From Chloroflexota bacterium (GTDB lineage: Bacteria; Chloroflexota; Limnocylindria; Limnocylindrales; CSP1-4): a DNA stretch of 10,197 nucleotides. The stretch lies in the NCBI GenBank assembly GCA_030271555.1, contig JARXKQ010000025.1:1-10197 (forward strand), given 5' to 3'. Numbering within the stretch: position 1 is the stretch's first letter; each line of letters starts with the position of its first letter. The notes under the pieces were generated by a model. It made no database searches. It was not told the DNA's origin and worked only from the letters and a program-made list of their open reading frames with translations. Shown here one piece after another: positions 1 through 8,611 of this stretch. The position numbers and the translations under genes are program-made.

Positions 1-248
1 CCCAGGACCAGGCCGCCGCGATCGGCGTGCTCGCGGACCGCGCCCATGACAGGTGAGAAGCGCGCGATCGCGCCTGACCGGAGGTAGTCGCCGTGGGCGA
101 AGCCACCCGGCAGGATTACCGCGTCCGCGCCACCCAGGTCAGTTCGCTCGTGCCACACGAGCTCTGCCGACCCGCCAGCCAGCTCAACGCCGTGAACCGC
201 GTCGCGATCGCAATTGGAGCCGGGGAAGACGACCACCGCGATTTTCAT
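1..248 (-). CDS. purQ: Phosphoribosylformylglycinamidine synthase subunit PurQ (glutaminase), N-terminal part, cut by the left edge
   Basis: Class I glutamine amidotransferase subunit of FGAM synthase. It releases ammonia from glutamine for the PurL subunit, turning FGAR into FGAM in cytosolic purine synthesis. Reading leftward from the ATG at 248, about 82 residues are visible. They begin [16 protein letters not shown], the characteristic PurQ N-terminus, and include [18 protein letters not shown] around residues 48-65, which matches the family's oxyanion-strand region; the usual Tyr before GDYLR is His here. The visible part ends at GLVLG, just before the nucleophile-elbow motif (usually CNGFQ), so the catalytic Cys and the later His/Glu lie outside the window. 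The ATG overlaps the purS stop as ATGA, which implies translational coupling; no clear Shine-Dalgarno sequence is seen. purL would be expected farther left, but that cannot be checked here. Confidence 0.93.
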
Positions 249-526
249 TTAGGTGGGCCCATTCGGGCCGTCACAGGCTGCGATTCGATCTGCCAACTTT
301 CGATCAGGGGGTTTGCGAACAGCTCCTTCGCCAGGCGATCGACAGTCGTCCAGGCTTCTGCCTCCGTGCCGGCCTCTACCTCCAGGTCCACCCTTCTGCC
401 AACGCGCACGTGATGAACGTTGACGGCGCCCAACTCGGGCAAAGCTGCCTCAACTGCACGACCTTGCGGATCGAGGATGCCGTCGCGCGGCATGATCGAG
501 ACGCTGAACCTGTACGCCGCGCTCAC
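245..526 (-). CDS. purS: Phosphoribosylformylglycinamidine synthase subunit PurS
   Basis: Small subunit of the three-part PurS/PurQ/PurL FGAM synthase found in Gram-positive and many other bacteria. It forms a dimeric scaffold joining PurQ to PurL. The 93-residue product has the PurS pattern: a first beta strand ([11 protein letters not shown]), the family hallmark LDPQG at residues 18-22, a helix ending in AALPELGA, then [18 protein letters not shown] and a C-terminal PLIESWQIE strand. The family is usually 80-90 residues, so the protein is complete. The start is GTG at 526, whose last bases overlap the purC stop (GTGA). No earlier methionine is available, and the next internal Met falls inside the first strand. 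Its position between purC and purQ agrees fully with the assignment. Confidence 0.94.
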
Positions 527-1437
527 GCGATCACGTCGTCTGACAGGTAGCGCTCGAACGAGCCACCGGTGATCCGCTCGAACGCCTCCGCGTAGCGCTT
601 GCGCGTACCGGCGACGACCTCGGCCGGCAGCTCCGGTCCGGGATAGGTCTTGCCCCAGTCGAGCGTCTCGAGATAGTCGCGCACGTACTGTTTGTCGTAC
701 GAATCCTGGGCTCGGCCGGGCTCGTAGCTTGACGCGTCCCAGAAGCGCGACGAATCGGGCGTGAGCACCTCGTCGATTAGGATCATCGGGCCGTCGTCGA
801 CGATGCCGAACTCGAACTTGGTGTCGGCGACGATGATGCCCGCGGGCTCCGCCGTCAACGTCGCGAACCTGTACAGCGCCAGCGCCTTGTCGCGTGCTTC
901 TTCCGCGCGAGCCGCGCCCACCAGCGCGACCATCTGGTCGAAGGAGATGTTCTCGTCGTGGCCCACCTCGGCCTTGGTCGACGGCGTGAAGATGGGCTCC
1001 GGTAGGCGGTCCGATTCGCGCAGGCCTGTGGCCAGCGGGATGCCGCAGACCGCGCCGGTGCGGCCGTAGTCCTTCCAGCCGCTCCCCGCCAGGTAGCCGC
1101 GCACGATCAGCTCGACCGGCAGCACCGTTGCCCGGCGACAGACCATGGAGCGGCCGCGCAGCTCGTTCGCCTGCGCAGCGAACGCGTCCGGCAGCCCCTC
1201 GACTGAAGTGGTCAAGAGGTGGTTGGGCATGATCCCGGCGCGCTGGGTTTCGCGGAACCAGTAGCGCGCGAGGCCGGTCAGGACGCGGCCCTTGTCGGGG
1301 ATGGGAGTGGGCAGGACGACGTCGAAGGCGCTGATGCGATCCGACGCCACGAGGAGGAGGCGCGACTCATCGAGCGAGTAGATGTCGCGCACCTTGCCCG
1401 AACGCAGGAACCCTGGTGCGACTTCAGCCAACGACAT
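523..1437 (-). CDS. purC: SAICAR synthetase (phosphoribosylaminoimidazole-succinocarboxamide synthase)
   Basis: Cytosolic ligase that joins CAIR and aspartate with ATP to form SAICAR. The 304-residue product is of the longer, yeast-like PurC form of about 300 residues, rather than the roughly 240-residue form of E. coli. The N-terminal SGKVRDIY (residues 13-20) and ASDRISAFDV (31-40) form the ATP-binding part. The family signatures LPVELIVRGYLAGSGWKDY (from residue 107) and LIDEVLTPDSSR (220-231) are intact. The ATG at 1437 is supported by the best Shine-Dalgarno sequence of the operon, AGGGGAGG, with a 6-base gap. The start lies inside the end of purB (14-base overlap), so the strong site may allow fresh initiation as well as coupling. 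The stop overlaps the purS GTG. Confidence 0.97.
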   Translation of the reverse strand: MSLAEVAPGFLRSGKVRDIYSLDESRLLLVASDRISAFDVVLPTPIPDKGRVLTGLARYWFRETQRAGIMPNHLLTTSVEGLPDAFAAQANELRGRSMVCRRATVLPVELIVRGYLAGSGWKDYGRTGAVCGIPLATGLRESDRLPEPIFTPSTKAEVGHDENISFDQMVALVGAARAEEARDKALALYRFATLTAEPAGIIVADTKFEFGIVDDGPMILIDEVLTPDSSRFWDASSYEPGRAQDSYDKQYVRDYLETLDWGKTYPGPELPAEVVAGTRKRYAEAFERITGGSFERYLSDDVIA

Positions 1438-2740
1438 TTGCAGCCTCCCCTTTTAGTCGGTCGATGATCAGCTCGACGTTGCGCAGCATTTGATCGATGT
1501 CGAAACAGGCGGCGATCTGGTCGGCCGACAACCGGCTGGTCACCGACTCATCCGCCTCGATGAGCTCGCGCAGCTGGCGCCGCTCGTCAGCGGCCTTGAG
1601 CGCTGCCCGCTGGACGATGGCGTACGCATCCTCGCGCGCCAGGCCGCCCTGCTCCACGAGCGCGGTCAGGAGGCGGCTGGAGGCGAACAACCCCAGGCCG
1701 CGGTCCAGGTTTTCGCGCATCCGCTCCGGCCGGACGATCAGCCCTTCGACGATGCGCGTCAGCCGCACGGTCATGTAATGCAGCAGCGTCGTTGCGCCGG
1801 GCAGCGCGACGCGCTCGACCGACGAGTGGGCGATGTCGCGCTCGTGCCACAGCGCCTCGTCTTCTAGCCCCGCCCCGGCATACCCGCGCACGAGGCGAGC
1901 GAGACCAGCCAGCCGCTCAGAGGTGATTGGGTTGCGCTTGTGGGGCATGGCGCTCGAACCCTTCTGGCCGGCGCGGAAAGGCTCCTGCAGCTCGCCGATC
2001 TCGGTGTGCTGGAGGTTGCGCACCTCAGTCGCGGCACGCTCGATCGAACCGGCGCAAACGGCGATGGCTGCCAGGAACGCGGCGTGCCTGTCGCGCGCCA
2101 CGACCTGGGTCGCGGCAGGCTCTATGGCGAGACCAAGTTCGGCCATCACCTCGGCTTCAATGTCGGGCCCAAGCTGGCTGTATGTGCCCACCGCGCCGGA
2201 CAGCTTGCCGACCGCGAGCTCCGTTGCCGCCGCCGCGATGCGCCGCCGACCACGGGCAAGCTCGAAGGCCCATGATGCGAGCTTCAGGCCAAAGGTGATG
2301 GGCTCGGCGTGGACTGAATGGGTGCGGCCCATCATCACCGTGGCCGCGTGCTCCCGGGCCTTAGCGGCGACGAGATCCACCAGCGCTGCCAGTGCGGCGT
2401 CGAGCAGGTCCGCCGCGGCCCGACATTGCAGCGCGAGTGCGGTGTCGACCACGTCCGACGACGTGAGCCCAAAGTGCAGGAAGCGGCCTTCCGGGCCGCA
2501 TGTCTCGGCAACCTGGCTGACGAAGGCGATGACGTCGTGGTCGGTGATCTTCTCAAGCTCGTTGATCCGATCGACGTCGACCGTCGCGGTGGCCTCGACC
2601 GCCGTCGTTGTACCGGCAGGGACCATGCCGTGGCGCTCGACCGCGCGAAGCGCCGCCAGCTCGACCCGCAGCATGTGCTCGAAGCGCGCCTGATCCGTCC
2701 AGAGCGCGCCCATCTCAGGCTGCGTGTAGCGCGCGATCAT
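1424..2740 (-). CDS. purB: Adenylosuccinate lyase
   Basis: Homotetrameric lyase of the fumarase/aspartase superfamily. It removes fumarate from SAICAR to give AICAR, and from adenylosuccinate to give AMP, so it acts after both PurC and PurA, which flank it. The 438-residue length is normal. Visible motifs are GLTSSDVVDT (residues 91-100), GRTHSVHAEPITFG (138-151) containing the catalytic His141, and the superfamily signature SSAMPHKRNP (262-271), whose mobile loop carries the catalytic serine. The ATG at 2740 overlaps the purD stop as ATGA, with GGAG about 8 bases upstream. At the other end purB overlaps purC by 14 bases. Confidence 0.97.
   Translation of the reverse strand: MIARYTQPEMGALWTDQARFEHMLRVELAALRAVERHGMVPAGTTTAVEATATVDVDRINELEKITDHDVIAFVSQVAETCGPEGRFLHFGLTSSDVVDTALALQCRAAADLLDAALAALVDLVAAKAREHAATVMMGRTHSVHAEPITFGLKLASWAFELARGRRRIAAAATELAVGKLSGAVGTYSQLGPDIEAEVMAELGLAIEPAATQVVARDRHAAFLAAIAVCAGSIERAATEVRNLQHTEIGELQEPFRAGQKGSSAMPHKRNPITSERLAGLARLVRGYAGAGLEDEALWHERDIAHSSVERVALPGATTLLHYMTVRLTRIVEGLIVRPERMRENLDRGLGLFASSRLLTALVEQGGLAREDAYAIVQRAALKAADERRQLRELIEADESVTSRLSADQIAACFDIDQMLRNVELIIDRLKGEAANVVG
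1444..1451 (-). promoter_or_regulatory. Strong ribosome binding site of purC inside the end of purB
   Basis: AGGGGAGG lies 6 bases before the purC ATG at 1437 and within the last codons of purB. It is a near-ideal complement to the 16S rRNA 3' end. The other operon junctions have only GGAG or no clear site, so purC may be translated more independently than its neighbours. Confidence 0.7.
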
Positions 2741-4029
2741 GCGGCCAGCTCCGCGGCCACGCGGCCGATATCGCGACGGACGATCTTGCCCGCAAAGTCG
2801 ATTCGCGCCGCCGCCTCATACGCAGCGTCGGCCGCCTCGGCTAGGTCGCTGCCCCGGCCGACCACGGTCAGCACCCGACCACCCGCGGTCACCAGCACGC
2901 CCTGGTCGTCCCGGGCGACACCCGCGCCAAAGACCAGCGCGCGGGCCGCGCGGGCATCGTCGATGCCGCGGATCTCGTCACCCGTTCGCGGCGCGGTCGG
3001 GTAGCCGGCGGCGGCCAGCGTCAACGCCACGGTGCTGTCAGCCATGGTGGAGATCGGCGGCAAGCCCATGAGCGAGCCGGTGGCCGCGGCCAGCAGAACC
3101 GGCGCGAGCGGGCCGGGCAGCCGGGGCAGGATGGCCTGCGTTTCCGGATCGCCGAGGCGCACGTTGAATTCCAGGACGCGCGGCCCATCAGCGGTAAGGA
3201 TCAGCCCTGCGAAGAGCGCGCCGCGAAATGGCGTCCCGCGCGAGGCCATGTGCGCCAGCACCGGCTCGAAGACCTGCCCGACGATCTCCTGGAGCCGCGT
3301 GTCAGCGAGGTCTGGCAGCGGCGAATAGGCGCCCATGCCGCCGGTGTTGGGGCCGCGGTCGCCCTCGTGCAGCTGCTTGTGGTCGCGCGCCGCGGGCAGC
3401 GCCAAGGCCGTCGTGCCATCGCAGATCGCGATGACGCTCGCCTCGCGGCCCGTCAGGAAGCGCTCGACAACGACGCTCGCACCGGCCGCGCCAAAGCGGC
3501 CATCTTCCAACGCCTCACGGATCGCCCGTTCGGCCTCGCCCAGGGTGGCGCAGATCGTCACGCCCTTGCCACCAGCCAGCCCGTCGGCTTTCACGACCAG
3601 CGGCAAGCCGATCTCCGCCGCGTACTCGATCGCACCCCTGGCGCTCGCAAATGCGCGGCCCATCGCCATGGGCACGACCGCCGCGCGGCAAATCTCGCGC
3701 GCGAACGCCTTGCTGCCCTCCAGCTGCGCGGCCGCGGCGCTTGGCCCAAAGCAGGCCACGCCTTCGCTTGCCAATCGATCTGCGAGACCGGCGACGAGCG
3801 GCGCCTCCGGGCCCACCACAACTAGGTCGATTCGCTCAGCGCGGTGCAGCGCCACGATGCCGTCGAAGTCGTCTGTGCGCACGTCTGGGCGCACATCGGC
3901 AACCGGCGCCATCAGCGGGTTGCCCGGCGCGACCAGGACGCGCGCCACGCCATCCTCAGTTGCGAGCCGCCACGCCAGTGCATGCTCGCGCGCGCCGCTA
4001 CCCACGACCAGGACGCGCAACCCACTCAT
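2737..4029 (-). CDS. purD: Phosphoribosylamine-glycine ligase (GAR synthetase)
   Basis: ATP-grasp enzyme that couples 5-phosphoribosylamine and glycine to form GAR, an early step of purine synthesis. The 430-residue product shows the N-terminal VLVVGSGAREHALAWRL (residues 6-22), the substrate-side VVGPEAPLVAGL (71-82), the ATP-grasp stretch LPLVVKADGLAGGKGV (142-157), RGPNTGGMGAYSP (225-237) and the metal-binding region VLEFNVRLGDPETQ (285-298). In that last motif the usual Phe is Leu, a mild change. A C-terminal glycine-rich domain follows. The ATG at 4029 overlaps the purA stop as ATGA, with GGAG about 8 bases before the start. Confidence 0.97.
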   Translation of the reverse strand: MSGLRVLVVGSGAREHALAWRLATEDGVARVLVAPGNPLMAPVADVRPDVRTDDFDGIVALHRAERIDLVVVGPEAPLVAGLADRLASEGVACFGPSAAAAQLEGSKAFAREICRAAVVPMAMGRAFASARGAIEYAAEIGLPLVVKADGLAGGKGVTICATLGEAERAIREALEDGRFGAAGASVVVERFLTGREASVIAICDGTTALALPAARDHKQLHEGDRGPNTGGMGAYSPLPDLADTRLQEIVGQVFEPVLAHMASRGTPFRGALFAGLILTADGPRVLEFNVRLGDPETQAILPRLPGPLAPVLLAAATGSLMGLPPISTMADSTVALTLAAAGYPTAPRTGDEIRGIDDARAARALVFGAGVARDDQGVLVTAGGRVLTVVGRGSDLAEAADAAYEAAARIDFAGKIVRRDIGRVAAELAA

Positions 4030-5348
4030 GCCGCGGCTCCGGCTCGGCGCCGCGCGCCCAGCACGCTTCCAGAGTTGACCATAAGCGTCTGATTCCGCTC
4101 CGGGCCTACGCTGATCACATCAATGGGCGCGCCGGCGCGCTCCTCGATCGCGGCAACATAGCGCCGCGCGGCGGCTGGCAGATCGGCGACCGACCGGCAG
4201 GCGCTGAGGTCCTCGCTCCAGCCTTCGAGCGTCTCGTAGACCGGCTCGGCGCGCTCGAGCTGCGCGACGTTGAGCGGCCACGAATCCACCAGCATCCCAT
4301 CGACCCGGTATCCGGTGCACACCTTGACCTGGGGCAGGCCGCTCAGGATGTCGATCTTGTTGAGCATCAGCGTGTTCACGCTGTTGACCTGGACGGCGTA
4401 GCGCAACGGCACGAAGTCCAACCAGCCTGAGCGCCGCCGGCGGCCGGTCGTCGTTCCGTACTCGTGGCCCTTCTCGGTCAAGTGCTCGCCCACGGCATCC
4501 TTCAACTCGGTCGGCAGCGGCCCCGCCCCGACGCGCGTCGAGTAGGCCTTCATGATGCCCAGCACCTGGTCAACCTGGAGCGGTCCGATGCCGCCGCCGG
4601 TGCACGCCCCGCCGGCAATCGGATTGCTCGACGTCACGTATGGATAGGTGCCATGGTCCAGGTCGAGCATCGTCCCCTGCGCGCCTTCGAAAAGGACGTG
4701 TTCGCCCCGGGCCAATGAGCCCTGCACCAGGGCGGTCGTGTCGGTGATCGCCCACGCCAGCTGGCGGCCCCAATCGAGGGCCAGCGCCAACAAGTCGTCC
4801 AGCGCGAACGTGGCCGCGCCGTAGGACGCGAGTAGGGCGTTCTTCTCAGCAACTGCCGCGGCCAAACGTGACCGCAACAAGTCGGGCTCAAGCAGATCAC
4901 CCATCCGGATGCCGCTGCGCCAGGCGCGGTCGCCATACGCCGGGCCAATGCCACGCCGCGTCGTACCGATAGCCGCTCCGCTGTCCGCGGCCGCGCCCTC
5001 GCGTGCTGCGTCGAGTGCCACGTGGTACGGCATGATCACGTGCGCCGCGTTGCTCACGCGCAGCTTCGCGGTTGCGATGCCGCGCTCATTGAGCATCTGC
5101 ATCTCGGTCAACAAGGTGCGCGGGTTGACCACGACGCCCGGTCCCACGATGGGCGTGATGTGCTCGTGCAGTACTCCGCTCGGGACCAGGTGGAGCTTGA
5201 AAACCTCATCGCCGACGACGACGGTGTGGCCGGCGTTGTCGCCGCCCTGGTAGCGGACGACGGCCGACACATCGGCGGACAGCAGGTCGGTCGCCTTGCC
5301 CTTGCCCTCATCGCCCCATTGGAGGCCGCAGATCACGGTCGCGGGCAC
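4026..5348 (-). CDS. purA: Adenylosuccinate synthetase
   Basis: GTP-dependent enzyme that converts IMP and aspartate to adenylosuccinate, the first committed step to AMP. PurB then completes the step. I place the start at GTG 5348, giving about 440 residues that begin MPATVICGLQWGDEGKGK. The frame stays open to an ATG at 5447, but those extra 33 residues are Arg-rich and unlike the family. With the GTG start, the catalytic Asp (D13 in WGDEGKGK) and His (H41 in GGDNAGHTV) fall at the canonical positions. GTTTGRRRRSGW and SVGPERNQTL near the C-terminus are also recognisable; the first differs slightly from the usual GTTTGRPRR form. Upstream of the GTG there is only a weak AGGG. This is the first gene of the operon and is preceded by a structured leader. 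Confidence 0.95.
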   Translation of the reverse strand: MPATVICGLQWGDEGKGKATDLLSADVSAVVRYQGGDNAGHTVVVGDEVFKLHLVPSGVLHEHITPIVGPGVVVNPRTLLTEMQMLNERGIATAKLRVSNAAHVIMPYHVALDAAREGAAADSGAAIGTTRRGIGPAYGDRAWRSGIRMGDLLEPDLLRSRLAAAVAEKNALLASYGAATFALDDLLALALDWGRQLAWAITDTTALVQGSLARGEHVLFEGAQGTMLDLDHGTYPYVTSSNPIAGGACTGGGIGPLQVDQVLGIMKAYSTRVGAGPLPTELKDAVGEHLTEKGHEYGTTTGRRRRSGWLDFVPLRYAVQVNSVNTLMLNKIDILSGLPQVKVCTGYRVDGMLVDSWPLNVAQLERAEPVYETLEGWSEDLSACRSVADLPAAARRYVAAIEERAGAPIDVISVGPERNQTLMVNSGSVLGARRRAGAAA

Positions 5349-5540
5349 GGCTAACGCCCTGCGCCGAATGTTTCTGGGGACGAGGCTGCGAAGGTTAGTC
5401 CGGTGCCCTGATCGACTCCGCTGAGCGTGAGTCGATTGTGGCTGCATGCCGGTCTCACGGGACCGACGCCGCCATCGGGCAACAAGACCTCCGCCTTCTG
5501 TGGCCGTGAGCTCACGGGCTCCCGCGCCGCCGAAGGGCGC
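5349..5540 (-). promoter_or_regulatory. Structured leader region of the purA operon
   Basis: About 190 bases between a possible -10 box and the purA start contain four inverted repeats. They are gcgcc/ggcgc at 5524-5540, a perfect 14-base palindrome ccgtgagctcacgg at 5504-5517, cggtc/gaccg at 5450-5465, and atcgactc/gagtcgat with a 10-base loop at 5411-5436. On the minus strand the loop of the third hairpin is CCGTGA, which also occurs in the palindrome, so alternative pairing is possible. I could not match the region to a known purine, guanidine, ZTP or PurR-box consensus. It may be an RNA control element or a set of protein binding sites; the function is inferred. Confidence 0.35.
5411..5436 (-). 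promoter_or_regulatory. Inverted repeat upstream of purA, possible operator or hairpin
   Basis: Perfect 8-base arms ATCGACTC and GAGTCGAT flank a 10-base centre, and the centre itself can form CGCT/AGCG. No T-tract follows, so it does not look like an intrinsic terminator. A TANNNT hexamer (TAACCT) lies downstream at 5392-5397, which would put the repeat over the -35 region of such a promoter and would suit an operator. This is inference from position only. Confidence 0.4.
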
Positions 5541-5572: not shown

Positions 5573-6373
5573 CTACGGACAAGCCCTTCGCCACGCGTCG
5601 AGTGCGAGCCGCTTGCGCATCGCGACGATGCCCAGCGTCGCCGCCTTGGCACAGAACTGGCCGCGCGTGAGCGAATACTCGATGTCGACGACGCTCTTGC
5701 CGGCGTCGACAAACGGCGTCACCAGGGCACATTCGCGGTACTGGAAGCACTGCTCCAGGATCGCGAAGTCAAAGTCCGGCTCGAGTTGGAGCGCCAGCTC
5801 CAGCGTGTTCTTGAAGCCCACGGCCAGCCCGCGCTCGTGGGCGCGCGCTGCCAACCAGCGGTCGAATGCGAGCTGGTCGGCCGCCGTCAGCGGGAAGCCC
5901 GAATCATTCGAATAGCCGTCGACGTTGTCGAACTCGACGCCGTCGAAGCCCTTGGCTGCGCACTGATCGAGTCGGCTGGTCAGGATCGGCCCGATGACAT
6001 CGATGCGGCGGATGTCGAGCCACTTCTCGCCCGGCCAGCCGTCGAGTCCGCGGCCCTTGACGATCCGCGGGTAGCGACCCGCGTCGGGCCGCCACTTTTC
6101 CCAAGCGCCCGCGTTGATGTAGCAAACGACGTGACGCCCATCGGCATGGAGTGCGGCAACGGTGCTCGCCGCGGTATCGAACATGTCAACATCCAACACG
6201 GTGGCATCAATTGAGGGATTGAGCCGGCCGCTGAACTGGATCTGCCACGTGGTCCCCAGACCGGGCATCCAGCGGGCCGCGGCAACGCCAGGTTCCGGCC
6301 AAGCGGCGAGTGCCGCGAGGACGGCCATTCCTAATATCGCGCTGCGCCTCATGACGCACATCTTGAGCAACAC
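5573..6373 (-). CDS. Secreted GH114-type glycoside hydrolase (endo-alpha-1,4-polygalactosaminidase-like)
   Basis: Predicted exported TIM-barrel hydrolase. GH114 enzymes cut alpha-1,4-linked galactosamine-containing exopolysaccharides; the actual substrate here is unknown. An N-terminal signal peptide (MRRSAILGMAVLAALAAW, residues 8-25) is followed by family landmarks: TTWQIQFSGRLN (41-52), VLDVDMFDT (59-67), VVCYINAGAWEKWRPDA (82-98), GWPGEKWLDIR (112-122), GFDGVEFDNVDGY (142-154) and FAILEQCFQYREC (203-215). D149 and E207 are the likely catalytic acids. At 266 residues it is a single domain. The start is uncertain: GTG at 6373, ATG at 6361 or ATG at 6352. None has a clear ribosome site, and the last gives the most typical signal peptide. 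It lies 224 bases upstream of purA on the same strand and is divergent from the NlpC/P60 genes. Confidence 0.85.
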   Translation of the reverse strand: MLLKMCVMRRSAILGMAVLAALAAWPEPGVAAARWMPGLGTTWQIQFSGRLNPSIDATVLDVDMFDTAASTVAALHADGRHVVCYINAGAWEKWRPDAGRYPRIVKGRGLDGWPGEKWLDIRRIDVIGPILTSRLDQCAAKGFDGVEFDNVDGYSNDSGFPLTAADQLAFDRWLAARAHERGLAVGFKNTLELALQLEPDFDFAILEQCFQYRECALVTPFVDAGKSVVDIEYSLTRGQFCAKAATLGIVAMRKRLALDAWRRACP

Positions 6374-6471
6374 CGCGTTGCGCGATGGGGCGACCGTGGG
6401 GTCAATCGGGCCGGACGATGGTCCGGGTTGTTCGCATTACAGCTCTGTTTCACAGTCGCGACAGCACTTAT

Positions 6472-6496
6472 TCGATCGTGCCCCAGCACTAATCGA
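6472..6496 (+). promoter_or_regulatory. Leader hairpin with GTGCCCCAGC core, before the first NlpC/P60 gene
   Basis: TCGAT (6472-6476) pairs with ATCGA (6492-6496), and GTG (6478-6480) with CAC (6487-6489), leaving CCCCAG as the loop. The 3' arm overlaps the first two bases of the Shine-Dalgarno sequence GAGGGG (6495-6500). The CCCC loop is complementary to the GGGG of that site. Two more copies precede the paralogous gene. A role in translation control is inferred. Confidence 0.5.
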
Positions 6497-6500
6497 GGGG
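6495..6500 (+). promoter_or_regulatory. Ribosome binding site that fixes the GTG start of the first NlpC/P60 gene
   Basis: GAGGGG is followed by a 6-base gap and GTG at 6507. The frame is open back to 6162, but this site, the signal peptide and the ungapped alignment with the second paralog all favour 6507. Confidence 0.7.
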
Positions 6501-6506
6501 ATTTTC

Positions 6507-7715
6507 GTGAACGTCGCACCAATAGGCACTCGCCGCTCCGACTACTCGGGCTTGCGGGGCCGGCTCATGCTGGTCCTCGCGATCTCTGTCGTCCTTATCG
6601 GCCTCCTGCCTGGCCCCGTCCAGGCCGGTTGGCTGACCGACGTATGGCCGGGTTCGACCGCTGAGCCAGGGTCTGAGGCCGCCCAGGTCCTCGATATTGC
6701 CCACCGCCAGGTTGGCAAGCCATACAAATTCGCCGCCGTGGGGCCCGACGCGTTCGACTGCTCCGGTCTCATCTGGTACGTCTTCAAGACGGCCGGGCTG
6801 GCCGATCGCATGGGCGACAAGCGCCGGGGCGCCACCGCCTATCTCAATTGGTTCAAGCTCAACCTGCCCAACCAGGTCTCACCGAATCTGGCCGACGCGC
6901 GGCCGGGTGACATCCTGATTTGGGGCGGCGGCAGGCACGCCGGCATCTACATCAGCGGCAACTGGGCCGTAAGCGCTCTGAATGAGCGCTACGACATACG
7001 CATTCACCGTGCCGACCCCATGGGCCTGCCCTTCACGGCAGTCCTCAAGGTCAACATGTCGCGCAACGCCGATCCGGATGCAACGCCCGATCCGAACGCC
7101 ACGCCCAGCCCTACGCCCGATCCCAACGCCACGCCCAGCCCCACCCCGGCGCCCGTAGAAGCGCCCATGCCGCCGACAAGCTTCAGCGCGGCAGCACAGC
7201 CCGAGCTGACCGTCGCGCTCGACTGGGACGGCGCGACCGGGACCGGCCCGCTCAAGTACCGCGTCTACCGCAACGGCGTCTATTACGTCGGCACCAAGCT
7301 GACGACCCTGCTTGATCACCCCTGGTTGCCAGGCAAGTACGACTATTCAATCCAGACGGTCGATGCCAATGGCGCGCACAGCTTCCGATCAGTCGTCAGG
7401 TCCGTGACCGTTCTCTCCGATGGGACGCCGGCCAACGTGACCGACACCACCGCGCCCACCGTGCCGACCGGCCTGACCGCCGAATCACTGGGCGACAAGC
7501 AGGTTGCCTTGAGCTGGCAGCCCAGCACGGACTCCGGCCCCTCGCCCGTTGGCTACCTGATCAAGCGCGGCACCAAGATCGTGGCCCGCGTGTGGACTCC
7601 GACCTACGTCGATCGGCCTACAACGACGGGCACCTACTCGTACACCGTCGTTGCCTTTGACGGATACGGCAACAACGTCGCTTCTGATCAGGTCGACGGC
7701 ACAGCCGACTGGTAG
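6507..7715 (+). CDS. Secreted NlpC/P60-family hydrolase with two fibronectin type III-like domains
   Basis: Predicted exported cysteine peptidase or amidase acting on peptidoglycan stem peptides or a related cell-wall substrate. From GTG 6507 the product has 402 residues. There is a basic N-terminus, a signal segment at residues 20-40 with a likely cleavage after PVQA, and an NlpC/P60 domain at about 55-185. A Pro/Thr/Asp linker follows at about 187-216, then two fibronectin III-like domains at about 222-303 and 316-400. The second of these has the typical APTVPTGLTA start and ALSWQPSTD strand. The catalytic Cys85 is in FDCSGLIW and His144 in GRHAGIYIS. By ungapped comparison with E. coli Spr, the third triad position is Ser156 instead of His. 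The domain is about 74% identical to that of the next gene over residues 15-186 (hand count). A strong hairpin follows the stop, so it is probably transcribed alone. Confidence 0.88.
   Translation: MNVAPIGTRRSDYSGLRGRLMLVLAISVVLIGLLPGPVQAGWLTDVWPGSTAEPGSEAAQVLDIAHRQVGKPYKFAAVGPDAFDCSGLIWYVFKTAGLADRMGDKRRGATAYLNWFKLNLPNQVSPNLADARPGDILIWGGGRHAGIYISGNWAVSALNERYDIRIHRADPMGLPFTAVLKVNMSRNADPDATPDPNATPSPTPDPNATPSPTPAPVEAPMPPTSFSAAAQPELTVALDWDGATGTGPLKYRVYRNGVYYVGTKLTTLLDHPWLPGKYDYSIQTVDANGAHSFRSVVRSVTVLSDGTPANVTDTTAPTVPTGLTAESLGDKQVALSWQPSTDSGPSPVGYLIKRGTKIVARVWTPTYVDRPTTTGTYSYTVVAFDGYGNNVASDQVDGTADW
7089..7148 (+). repeat. Two tandem 30-base units in the linker of the first NlpC/P60 gene
   Basis: Units at 7089-7118 and 7119-7148 differ at a few positions and encode the repeated peptide DPNATPSPTP. 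This is a typical slippage-prone low-complexity linker between the catalytic domain and the fibronectin III-like part. Confidence 0.8.
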
Positions 7716-7763
7716 GCCCCCCCCGCGCGCGTCGGCGGCCGCGTGACTAACGCGTCCCGCTGA

Positions 7764-7800
7764 GAGACCGGCCCTGCATGGGGCCGGTCTCGACCTTTGT
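7764..7800 (+). terminator. Likely intrinsic terminator after the first NlpC/P60 gene
   Basis: Perfect 11-base arms GAGACCGGCCC (7764-7774) and GGGCCGGTCTC (7781-7791) enclose a 6-base loop, followed by GACCTTTGT. The stem is very stable. The T-tract is short, as is common in high-GC genomes, so some read-through into the next gene is possible. Confidence 0.75.
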
Positions 7801-7804
7801 AAGG

Positions 7805-7834
7805 TTGCGCGATCGGGGCATAACCAAGTAAAGT
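7805..7834 (+). promoter_or_regulatory. Possible promoter of the second NlpC/P60 gene
   Basis: TTGCGC (7805-7810) and TAAAGT (7829-7834) are separated by 18 bases, an acceptable sigma-70-type arrangement just downstream of the terminator. Transcription would start near the cattacag at 7835-7842, which is also found before the first paralog, giving a leader of about 90 bases. Confidence 0.45.
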
Positions 7835-7853
7835 CATTACAGACGCCGGTCAA

Positions 7854-7873
7854 TCGAGTGCCCCAGCGCTCGA
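7854..7873 (+). promoter_or_regulatory. First leader hairpin with GTGCCCCAGC core, before the second NlpC/P60 gene
   Basis: TCGAGTG (7854-7860) pairs with CGCTCGA (7867-7873), with one G-U pair, and CCCCAG forms the loop. The loop and inner stem match the hairpin before the first paralog, while the outer stem sequence differs but remains paired. Confidence 0.5.
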
Positions 7874-7894
7874 ATGAACCCGTTTGGGAGCCAT

Positions 7895-7918
7895 CTGCTC
7901 GTGCCCCAGCATGTGCAG
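7895..7918 (+). promoter_or_regulatory. Second leader hairpin with GTGCCCCAGC core, next to the ribosome site
   Basis: CTGC (7895-7898) pairs with GCAG (7915-7918). The inner GTG (7901-7903) pairs with CAT (7910-7912), with one G-U pair, around the CCCCAG loop. The 3' arm touches the Shine-Dalgarno sequence GGGAGGGG (7918-7925), which is followed by a 5-base gap and GTG at 7931. The layout is the same as before the first paralog. Confidence 0.48.
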
Positions 7919-7930
7919 GGAGGGGATGCC

Positions 7931-8611
7931 GTGAAATTTGCGCATGCCAGGTTGCGCTCGCCCGCGCGGAGCGGGCTCCGGGGCCGACTCATGTTGGTCC
8001 TGTCAATGTCCTTGGTCCTGGTCGGTCTCCTGCCGAGCCCCGTTCAGGGCGGCTGGTTGTCATCCACGTGGCCGGACTACGGCGCGACGCCCAACTCAGA
8101 TGCGGCGCGCGTCCTTGAGATCGCCCATCAGCAGATCGGCAAGCGCTTCGTCATGGGTGGCATCGGGCCTGACACTTTCGATTGCTCCGGCCTCATCTGG
8201 TACGCGTTCAAGACGGCCGGCCTGGCTGATCGCATGGGCGGCAAGCGCCGCGGTGCCACGGCCTACCTGAGCTGGTTCAAGGAGAATCTGCCAAATCAGG
8301 TATCTAGCAACCTCGAAGACGCGCGACCGGGCGACATCCTGATCTGGGGCGGCGGGCATCACTCTGGATTGTTCATCAGCGGCAAGTGGGCGATCAGCGC
8401 GCTCAACGAGCGCTATGACATTCGGGTCCACCGTGCCGATCGCGTTGGATTGCCGTTCACCGCGGTCCTGATGGTGTCGATGTCGCGCAGCGACGACGGG
8501 TCGATCCCCACGCCACCACCCACGCCGACTCCGTCACCCACGCCGTCGGAGACACCTGCCCCCACGGCGACCCCGACGGCGACTCCGACCGCCACACCCC
8601 CAGCGCACTAG
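7931..8611 (+). CDS. Secreted NlpC/P60-family hydrolase, short paralog
   Basis: Second member of the tandem pair, 226 residues from GTG 7931, which follows GGGAGGGG. Signal segment at residues 20-40 (RLMLVLSMSLVLVGLLPSPV), NlpC/P60 domain at about 55-185, then a Thr/Pro/Ser-rich tail ending TATPTATPPAH with no further domain. Cys85 (FDCSGLIW) and His144 (GGHHSGLFIS) are at exactly the same residue numbers as in the first paralog, and Ser156 again replaces the usual third-triad His. The two align without gaps over residues 1-186. Either this copy lost the fibronectin III-like part or the other gained it. A cell-wall role is expected from the family; the substrate is unknown. The stop is shared within a CTAG with the convergent oxidoreductase gene. 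Confidence 0.87.
   Translation: MKFAHARLRSPARSGLRGRLMLVLSMSLVLVGLLPSPVQGGWLSSTWPDYGATPNSDAARVLEIAHQQIGKRFVMGGIGPDTFDCSGLIWYAFKTAGLADRMGGKRRGATAYLSWFKENLPNQVSSNLEDARPGDILIWGGGHHSGLFISGKWAISALNERYDIRVHRADRVGLPFTAVLMVSMSRSDDGSIPTPPPTPTPSPTPSETPAPTATPTATPTATPPAH
8564..8599 (+). repeat. Three degenerate 12-base units encoding TATP-type repeats
   Basis: ACGGCGACCCCG, ACGGCGACTCCG and ACCGCCACACCC are in phase with the reading frame and encode TATP repeats in the tail of the short NlpC/P60 paralog. This is low-complexity, probably surface-exposed or wall-spanning sequence. Confidence 0.65.

Follow-up and report, generated by a model that had tools for sequence, protein, structure and literature searches.

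A CCCA-looped hairpin leader before secreted cell-wall hydrolase genes of a Chloroflexota family points to an undescribed RNA switch

Two neighbouring NlpC/P60 genes of a Chloroflexota bacterium (GTDB lineage Limnocylindria; Limnocylindrales; CSP1-4) are preceded by three copies of a single 10-mer, GTGCCCCAGC, a layout that raises the question of what these copies do there and whether relatives carry them as well. The window, by which we mean the whole stretch of DNA analyzed, comprises 10,197 nt (positions 1 to 10,197 of contig JARXKQ010000025.1, assembly GCA_030271555.1, forward strand). An initial annotation had seen in the copies a structured RNA motif before NlpC/P60 genes, and this reading is supported: judged from sequence, the two genes, which encode secreted cell-wall hydrolases, would carry the three copies as RNA hairpins in their 5' leaders. 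Their position, their structure by covariation, the specificity of their loops and their recurrence before secreted-protein genes in relatives are directly supported. We consider it probable that they represent a lineage-restricted, cis-acting translational leader, whose loops are recognized either by a trans factor or through tertiary contacts.

Three hairpins before two paralogs, and their counterparts in short leaders

The three copies lie exactly where the initial annotation had placed them, in the leaders of the two paralogs (6478-6487, 7858-7867 and 7901-7910, all on the forward strand), with no further exact copy on either strand of the window. The first is found shortly before the start of gene 1 (6507) and the other two before that of gene 2 (7931), both GTG starts having been picked by their Shine-Dalgarno sequences. 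Three copies compare with 0.07 expected, a count that none of 200 shuffles reached. Each copy folds into a hairpin (A, B and C; Table 1) with a CCCA loop closed by GC/GC, the inner stems being GUGC/GCAC in A, GUGC/GCGC in B and CGUGC/GCAUG in C. The proposed fold of an inner and an outer stem stands as far as the CCCA-loop hairpins and the outer stems themselves are concerned, with the amendment that the outer stem of A contains a bulge and that of C a U-U mismatch. The 3' arm of hairpin C finishes on the first G of GGAGGGG (7919-7925). Terminator-like sites, a G+C stem followed by a T run as in an intrinsic attenuator, number zero in 6350-7935. Compared with shuffles, the fold energy stands out for B (z -4.7, as opposed to 0.00 for A, -0.05 for C and -1.31 for B and C taken as one stretch), and since only this copy beats its shuffles, the case is carried by the comparison with relatives and not by folding energy alone.

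Table 1. Hairpins, ribosome sites, genes and upstream repeats at the two NlpC/P60 loci of the window
Feature	Position	Strand	Basis and remarks
ATTACAG upstream of hairpin A	6436..6442	+	a direct-repeat regulator site may span 6436-6452, with this as its first half
Hairpin A, UUCGAU-C-GUGC [CCCA] GCAC-UA-AUCGAG	6471..6497	+	3' arm reaches into the gene 1 Shine-Dalgarno sequence; sequence, fold, motif
Shine-Dalgarno GAGGGG, gene 1	6495..6500	+	partly within the lower stem of hairpin A; sequence, fold
Gene 1, secreted NlpC/P60 protein, GTG start	6507..7715	+	PF00877, E 3.9e-10
ATTACAG upstream of hairpin B	7836..7842	+	sole other forward-strand copy in the window
Hairpin B, UCGAGUGC [CCCA] GCGCUCGA, 8 pairs	7854..7873	+	first member of the tandem; fold, z -4.7
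Hairpin C, UCUGC-U-CGUGC [CCCA] GCAUG-U-GCAGG	7894..7919	+	second member of the tandem, abuts the Shine-Dalgarno sequence; fold
Shine-Dalgarno GGAGGGG, gene 2	7919..7925	+	at the foot of hairpin C; sequence, fold
Gene 2, secreted NlpC/P60 paralog, GTG start	7931..8611	+	PF00877, E 4.9e-10

Relatives were compared in sets of 107 genomes of the family and 177 of the class, many of them incomplete. The NlpC/P60 leader of one family member (G036) has a GGGGAG ribosome site behind a pair of GCCCCAGC hairpins, and the same order of hairpin, hairpin and ribosome site precedes two NlpC/P60 genes that were found by protein alone (G111:C21 and G108:C468). Together with B and C of the window, these leaders make up a short tandem subgroup of two CCCA-type hairpins, Shine-Dalgarno sequence and NlpC/P60 gene, in which the second loop of G108 reads CUCA; in G108 and G111 only, an outer stem is predicted to close the tandem as a three-way junction. 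That the outer stems differ and yet pair, as the initial annotation had pointed out for the window, is borne out by compensatory changes in these relatives. In the first six hairpins 91.7% of cells are paired versus 66.1% when shuffled, with 13 double changes versus 5.6, and in ten short-leader hairpins the figures are 86.3% versus 61.5% and 22 versus 9.4, the pairing being destroyed when the partner arm is slid.

The same comparison bears on the possibility of chance, or of an artefact of copying between the paralogs. The two proteins are 68% identical over their shared part, so that their leaders could share ancestry, and the genome is GC-rich. Such an origin is nevertheless highly improbable: the stems differ while pairing persists, three copies of GTGCCCCAGC are beyond all the shuffles, and the same design recurs in G036, ahead of its NlpC/P60 gene (protein 36% identical to that of gene 2), and in G108 and G111, which belong to another genus, likewise ahead of the NlpC/P60 gene.

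Within the genome of the window itself (62.8% complete), GTGCCCCAGC occurs six times (five forward, one reverse) versus four for a reversed control; three of the six lie outside the window, and by eye two of them (L001 and L005) fall in coding-like sequence. Two more NlpC/P60 genes were located, on contigs C201 and C261. The C201 leader carries CAGCGCGCCCCAGCGUGCUG, an 8-pair stem with the identical loop, well upstream of the likely start and off the Shine-Dalgarno sequence. In the C261 leader (L038) the hairpin motif was not found; by eye, a GATCGCA/TGCGATC stem is seen there immediately 5' of a GGAGGAG site. The four best-scoring places of a 24-nt hairpin covariance model (R1, six seeds) in this genome are the hairpin of C201 and those of the window (B, C and A), all four being among its seeds; the next places, inspected in 11 loci, begin at E 0.065. 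Additional GCCCCAGC hairpins that no long open frame covers are seen at C151:5513-5536 (-) and C308:267-290 (+), at R1 E-values of 0.19 and 2.1; they may be other leaders or chance.

As a detector across the family R1 alone was rejected, for at E 5 it hit every one of the 107 genomes, and most of the contexts viewed looked like coding chance by eye, leaving leads only (L162 and L163). Simple patterns fared similarly. GATGTSCTGGTRG occurred in 88 of 107 genomes, above its reversed control, with 30 contexts (L188-L217) that looked coding-like by eye; the tandem pattern GCCCCAGCN{10,40}GCCCCAGC was found in 81 of 107, with a reversed control that was also frequent; and CCGCCCCAGCGGTNGAG at one mismatch was found in 57 of 107, and 19 contexts from 16 of 20 loci, 11 of these 16 stemming from this search and 5 from another, were by eye not leaders.

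A longer leader type across the family

The two R1 leads and further related leaders have in common a tail, CYGGYAG..GGAG, 3' of the hairpin, from which a second model, R2, was built (45 positions, 8 sequences). R1, R2 and the model R3 described below were calibrated on little sequence and their E-values are rough, and searches over 40 genomes were run with stricter filters, by which weak matches are lost. R2 matches 83 places in 47 of the 107 family genomes at E 0.3; at E 0.01 it is found in 43 of the 177 class genomes, all 43 inside this family. Of the 71 matches at E<0.01, 70 were fetched, all but one near a contig end (G030:C268); the other 12 of the 83 are weaker. Across these 70 loci 93.3% of cells are paired versus 78.7% when shuffled, with 89 double changes versus 28.9.

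The genes behind R2 form a coherent set. A start codon with a reading frame, the longest frame being taken, follows 2-14 nt past the end of R2 in 69 of the 70 loci (L283 has none), and 66 of the 69 proteins have a hydrophobic N-terminus versus 30 of 280 mechanical control frames. Pfam domains among the 69 include NlpC/P60 (27), SH3_3 (22), SpoIID (3), transglycosylase-like (3), matrixin (2), M23 (1) and SLT (1). The tie of the motif to NlpC/P60 genes holds for 27 of 69 genes and was drawn too narrowly, as the family-wide leader type also precedes other secreted proteins. In the covariance-model search of relatives that the initial annotation had suggested, NlpC/P60 genes and others for secreted proteins were seen to be preceded by the hairpin or by its R2 relative, with compensatory changes. 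A second large gene class behind R2 leaders is a secreted family with 24 aligned members (A11, for example L229:646-1491 (-)); its core has no Pfam match and displays invariant HG (GHGNG) and CY motifs, and at a guess it may adopt a caspase-like fold.

Approached from the opposite side, a protein search blind to the RNA returned 40 NlpC/P60 matches in 32 of the 107 genomes, of which 28 have R2 on the same strand at most 700 nt upstream, a count that includes 7 seeds of R2. Among the 12 without R2, five have a CCCA hairpin, namely the two window genes, C201, G111 and G108. In four more (G026:C13, G117:C77, G114:C236 and G001:C46) no CCCA hairpin with a stem of at least 4 was present in the scanned stretch, C261 of the window's own genome is without the motif, G066:C476:5 was left out at a contig end, and G032:C8, which the script did not locate in its locus, has an R3 match just upstream of its NlpC/P60 gene. 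In a broad scan of NlpC/P60 genes in other lineages (80 loci), no GC-CCCA-GC hairpin with a stem of at least 5 appeared among those listed. The window has in common with the family leaders a hairpin, often CCCA-looped there, at the Shine-Dalgarno sequence of a secreted-protein gene, and lacks the CYGGYAG...GGAG tail.

Many of the family leaders have a second domain, AACCGAAGA together with a GCCG/CGGC stem, which a loose word search placed near 42 of the 70 R2 matches. Ten of these 42 are doubtful and were left out of the domain alignment, but retained in the A-B test below; 21 of the other 32 leaders served as seeds of the upstream-domain model R3. At E<1e-3 this model matches 39 places in the 177 class genomes, 35 of which have R2 44-171 nt downstream, a proportion of 14 of 18 after subtracting the 21 seeds; at E 0.1 there is no match in 125 of the 177. 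A segment between the domain and R2, segment B, can pair with the tail including GGAG (CUCCGAUCU with AGAUCGGAG, CUCCUCU with AGAGGAG, CCUUCCUGCC with GGUAGGAAGG), or alternatively with the upstream domain (A:B). Comparing own with swapped partners, 0 of 2000 swaps reach the A-B pairing of the real leaders, and for the B-tail pairing 0 of 2000 (42 leaders) and 2 of 2000 (69 leaders) do so. Several leaders are without a good B-tail helix, and this pairing is therefore supported for part of the set.

A conserved R3 domain that in 35 of 39 places is followed by R2, in conjunction with the competing A:B and B:tail pairings, would also suit a new class of metabolite riboswitch. Here, the AACCGAAGA domain would bind a small molecule and drive the choice between A:B and B:tail, the tandem of the window being a reduced or separate ligand-binding version; the idea overlaps with the translational leader that we favour and differs from it in the effector. 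There is precedent for such control in the translational c-di-AMP (cyclic di-adenosine monophosphate) riboswitch before nlpC in Corynebacterium glutamicum (PMC9960051). Nonetheless, the window leaders are without the upstream domain, the CCCCA copies are scattered over the leader rather than collected in one domain, and the genes encode extracellular proteins of several families that name no metabolite. We regard a metabolite riboswitch as possible, but rather unlikely.

The CCCA loop and how the leader may work

Upstream of R2 it is the loop that recurs. GC-CCCA-GC hairpins with a stem of at least 5 number 10 in the 20,565 nt of sense sequence that make up the 300 nt upstream of R2, versus 0 antisense and 3 in 265,582 nt elsewhere in the R2 loci. 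Among the 4-nt hairpin loops of these leaders CCCA ranks first, with 15 cases versus 0.6 expected from elsewhere (antisense 1), compared with a mere 1.14-fold enrichment of hairpins of all loops. Other C-rich loops favour the sense strand too (TCCG 9 to 0, CCCG 6 to 0, CGCC 8 to 1), but the ratio of CCCA is not approached by any other of the twelve loops listed. The extended word CCCCAG is present in sense in 38 of 69 leaders and in antisense in none, and counted over 68 of the 69 leaders (one contains N) amounts to 64 copies versus 16.9 in dinucleotide shuffles (largest 29), or 51 versus 12.1 when the R2 element is removed. In the predicted ensemble the unpaired fraction of CCCCA is 0.76 versus 0.59 in shuffled leaders; the word reaches four copies in single leaders and is missing from 18 of the 68.

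Loop letters that are kept on freely varying, pairing arms argue for recognition as RNA rather than as DNA. It is accordingly quite improbable that the dyads are operators, that is, transcription-factor binding sites near a promoter. The hairpins do lie near a likely promoter, with ATTACAG upstream of both A and B, and the sense-strand bias is in part a matter of composition, as the TCCG, CCCG and CGCC loops illustrate; a protein-bound dyad would however keep its arms and let the loop vary, CCCCAG is confined to the sense strand and more numerous than in dinucleotide shuffles of the same leaders, and hairpins A and C abut the Shine-Dalgarno sequence.

The upstream repeats merit separate mention. 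DTWACA-N5-DTWACA is a pattern associated with WalR-type regulators, and 6436-6452, with one mismatch, is the only match to it in the window at up to two mismatches on either strand; the L163 leader has a perfect copy, ATTACAGAGACGTAACA. Between the two NlpC/P60 genes, a strong hairpin formed by GAGACCGGCCC and GGGCCGGTCTC (7764-7791) has neither a T run nor a terminator score, which suggests that gene 2 has its own promoter. Elsewhere in the window, a run of genes on the reverse strand (3-5447), which by their reading frames we take to serve purine synthesis, adjoins a GH114 gene.

A further alternative is passive structure, with hairpins that just tune basal translation or protect the end of the messenger RNA, without any effector. 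The small window form, positioned on the Shine-Dalgarno sequence, would agree with this, as would the different loop at that place in 42 of 70 relatives. A passive stem has no need of a fixed loop, however, and CCCA stands out among 4-nt loops and CCCCA is repeated within single leaders; we consider this explanation improbable.

We rather envisage that the element acts in the RNA and sets translation initiation, with the stem competing with the ribosome for the Shine-Dalgarno sequence and in this way limiting access. Like loops, often at least two per leader, may be read by a trans factor, either an RNA-binding protein or a small RNA, or may engage in tertiary contacts. In the long form segment B would pair with either the upstream domain (AACCGAAGA plus the small stem) or the Shine-Dalgarno tail, the layout of an on/off switch, in which the competing pairings could mask or expose the ribosome site; the window leaders would retain the loop hairpins alone. 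More tentatively, one may picture a regulon of secreted cell-wall enzymes under a translational RNA code, where CCCCA-loop hairpins are read by one RNA-binding factor and are coupled, in much of the family, to a switch between the AACCGAAGA domain and the ribosome site over one segment, the window being stripped to hairpins, single or in tandem. Two simpler partners for the loop were considered and dismissed: pairing of CCCC with the GGGG of its own Shine-Dalgarno sequence is possible in A, C and G036, fails in relatives with AGAGGAG and is not general, and pairing of CCAG with a CUGG tail fits some leaders and fails where the tail is CCGG.

Several observations weigh against this reading. The best score of R2 in the window (11.3 bits, E 0.45) does not amount to a real match, nor is there one in the genome it comes from, AACCGAAGA has no match in the window at up to one mismatch, and the best R3 score there is 12.3 bits, at 2597-2632; the link from the window to the long form rests on the common loop, the place and the gene type. 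Fold energies of A, C, G111, G108 and G036 are no better than those of shuffles. Among the covariation measures a simple tally of pairs in which both sides have changed is unremarkable and only the others stand out: 6 of 8 such pairs were matched by 50 of 500 shuffles for the six hairpins and by 141 of 500 for the ten, and 7 of 8 by 33 of 500 for R2. The compared sequences are moreover related and hence not independent, and the 70 R2 matches, having been aligned to their own model, lean towards its structure. As to the loop, the leaders are C-rich (C/G 1.27), whereby the strand bias of CCCA is partly one of composition, and among the 70 R2 hairpins 20 hold CCCCA, 3 CCCA, 5 another CCA and 42 none of these. 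Finally, several leaders form only a weak B-tail helix, and when partners are swapped more strictly, across tail types, the margin is narrow (mean longest helix 6.42 versus 6.35 for the largest of 200 swaps).

Known RNA families and the closest systems

The initial annotation had not been able to match the motif to a known riboswitch, the c-di-AMP class included, and Rfam agrees, giving no match in the leaders. In the window, Rfam 15 returned up to E 5 only mir-1268 (E 0.66) and mir-598 (E 3.7), both outside the leaders and far below cut-offs, and in 31 related leader loci (28 distinct places; E 1 or E 2) no match fell inside the leaders. Matches outside the latter comprised a tRNA with overlapping weaker matches, weak small RNA matches and a weak fluoride riboswitch (L042 2725-2786 (-); 30.9 bits, below its cut-off of 34, and containing a 15-nt insert). 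The NLPC-P60 RNA motif is named after the same gene type as that of the window; if contained in Rfam 15, it matched neither the window nor the related leader loci, and its name was not found in the open-licence literature. Judged by title and start of abstract, no open-licence paper was found that describes the CCCA-hairpin leader motif.

Aggregated, these results point to an undescribed RNA switch, a structured leader type with a coherent gene set, covariation and two architectures, for which a search for the ligand or binding protein is therefore directly possible. It would reveal how wall hydrolases are coordinated translationally in one lineage, and would provide an example of two designs, a short array of hairpins and a long switch with competing pairs, that have one recognition loop in common.

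The c-di-AMP (ydaO/kimA) riboswitch, RF00379, resembles the leader in preceding NlpC/P60 and other cell-wall genes in Actinobacteria. For the Corynebacterium glutamicum nlpC leader, PMC9960051 describes a translational riboswitch in which a CTCC is suggested to pair with the ribosome-site GGAG. No match to RF00379 was obtained in the window (up to E 5), in the genome to which it belongs or in the 31 leader loci; members over the cut-off occur in 9 of 81 genomes searched, the own genome being among the 72 without, and for the three riboswitch members in this bacterial family whose downstream gene was read, that gene was by eye one for a transporter-like membrane protein. The guanidine-II riboswitch (mini-ykkC) is likewise a tandem of two small hairpins with like loops, for which Rfam gives no match in the window. 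Its loops are ACGR, whereas those of A, B and C are CCCA, so that the window presents no two ACGR hairpins, and Watson-Crick kissing between two CCCA loops is impossible. The leaders of the CsrA/Rsm type are comparable in a different manner. CsrA reads GGA, unlike the CCCCA of the loop repeated here; the arrangement of several like-looped hairpins per leader, one of them at the Shine-Dalgarno sequence, is alike, and would fit a dimeric RNA-binding protein.

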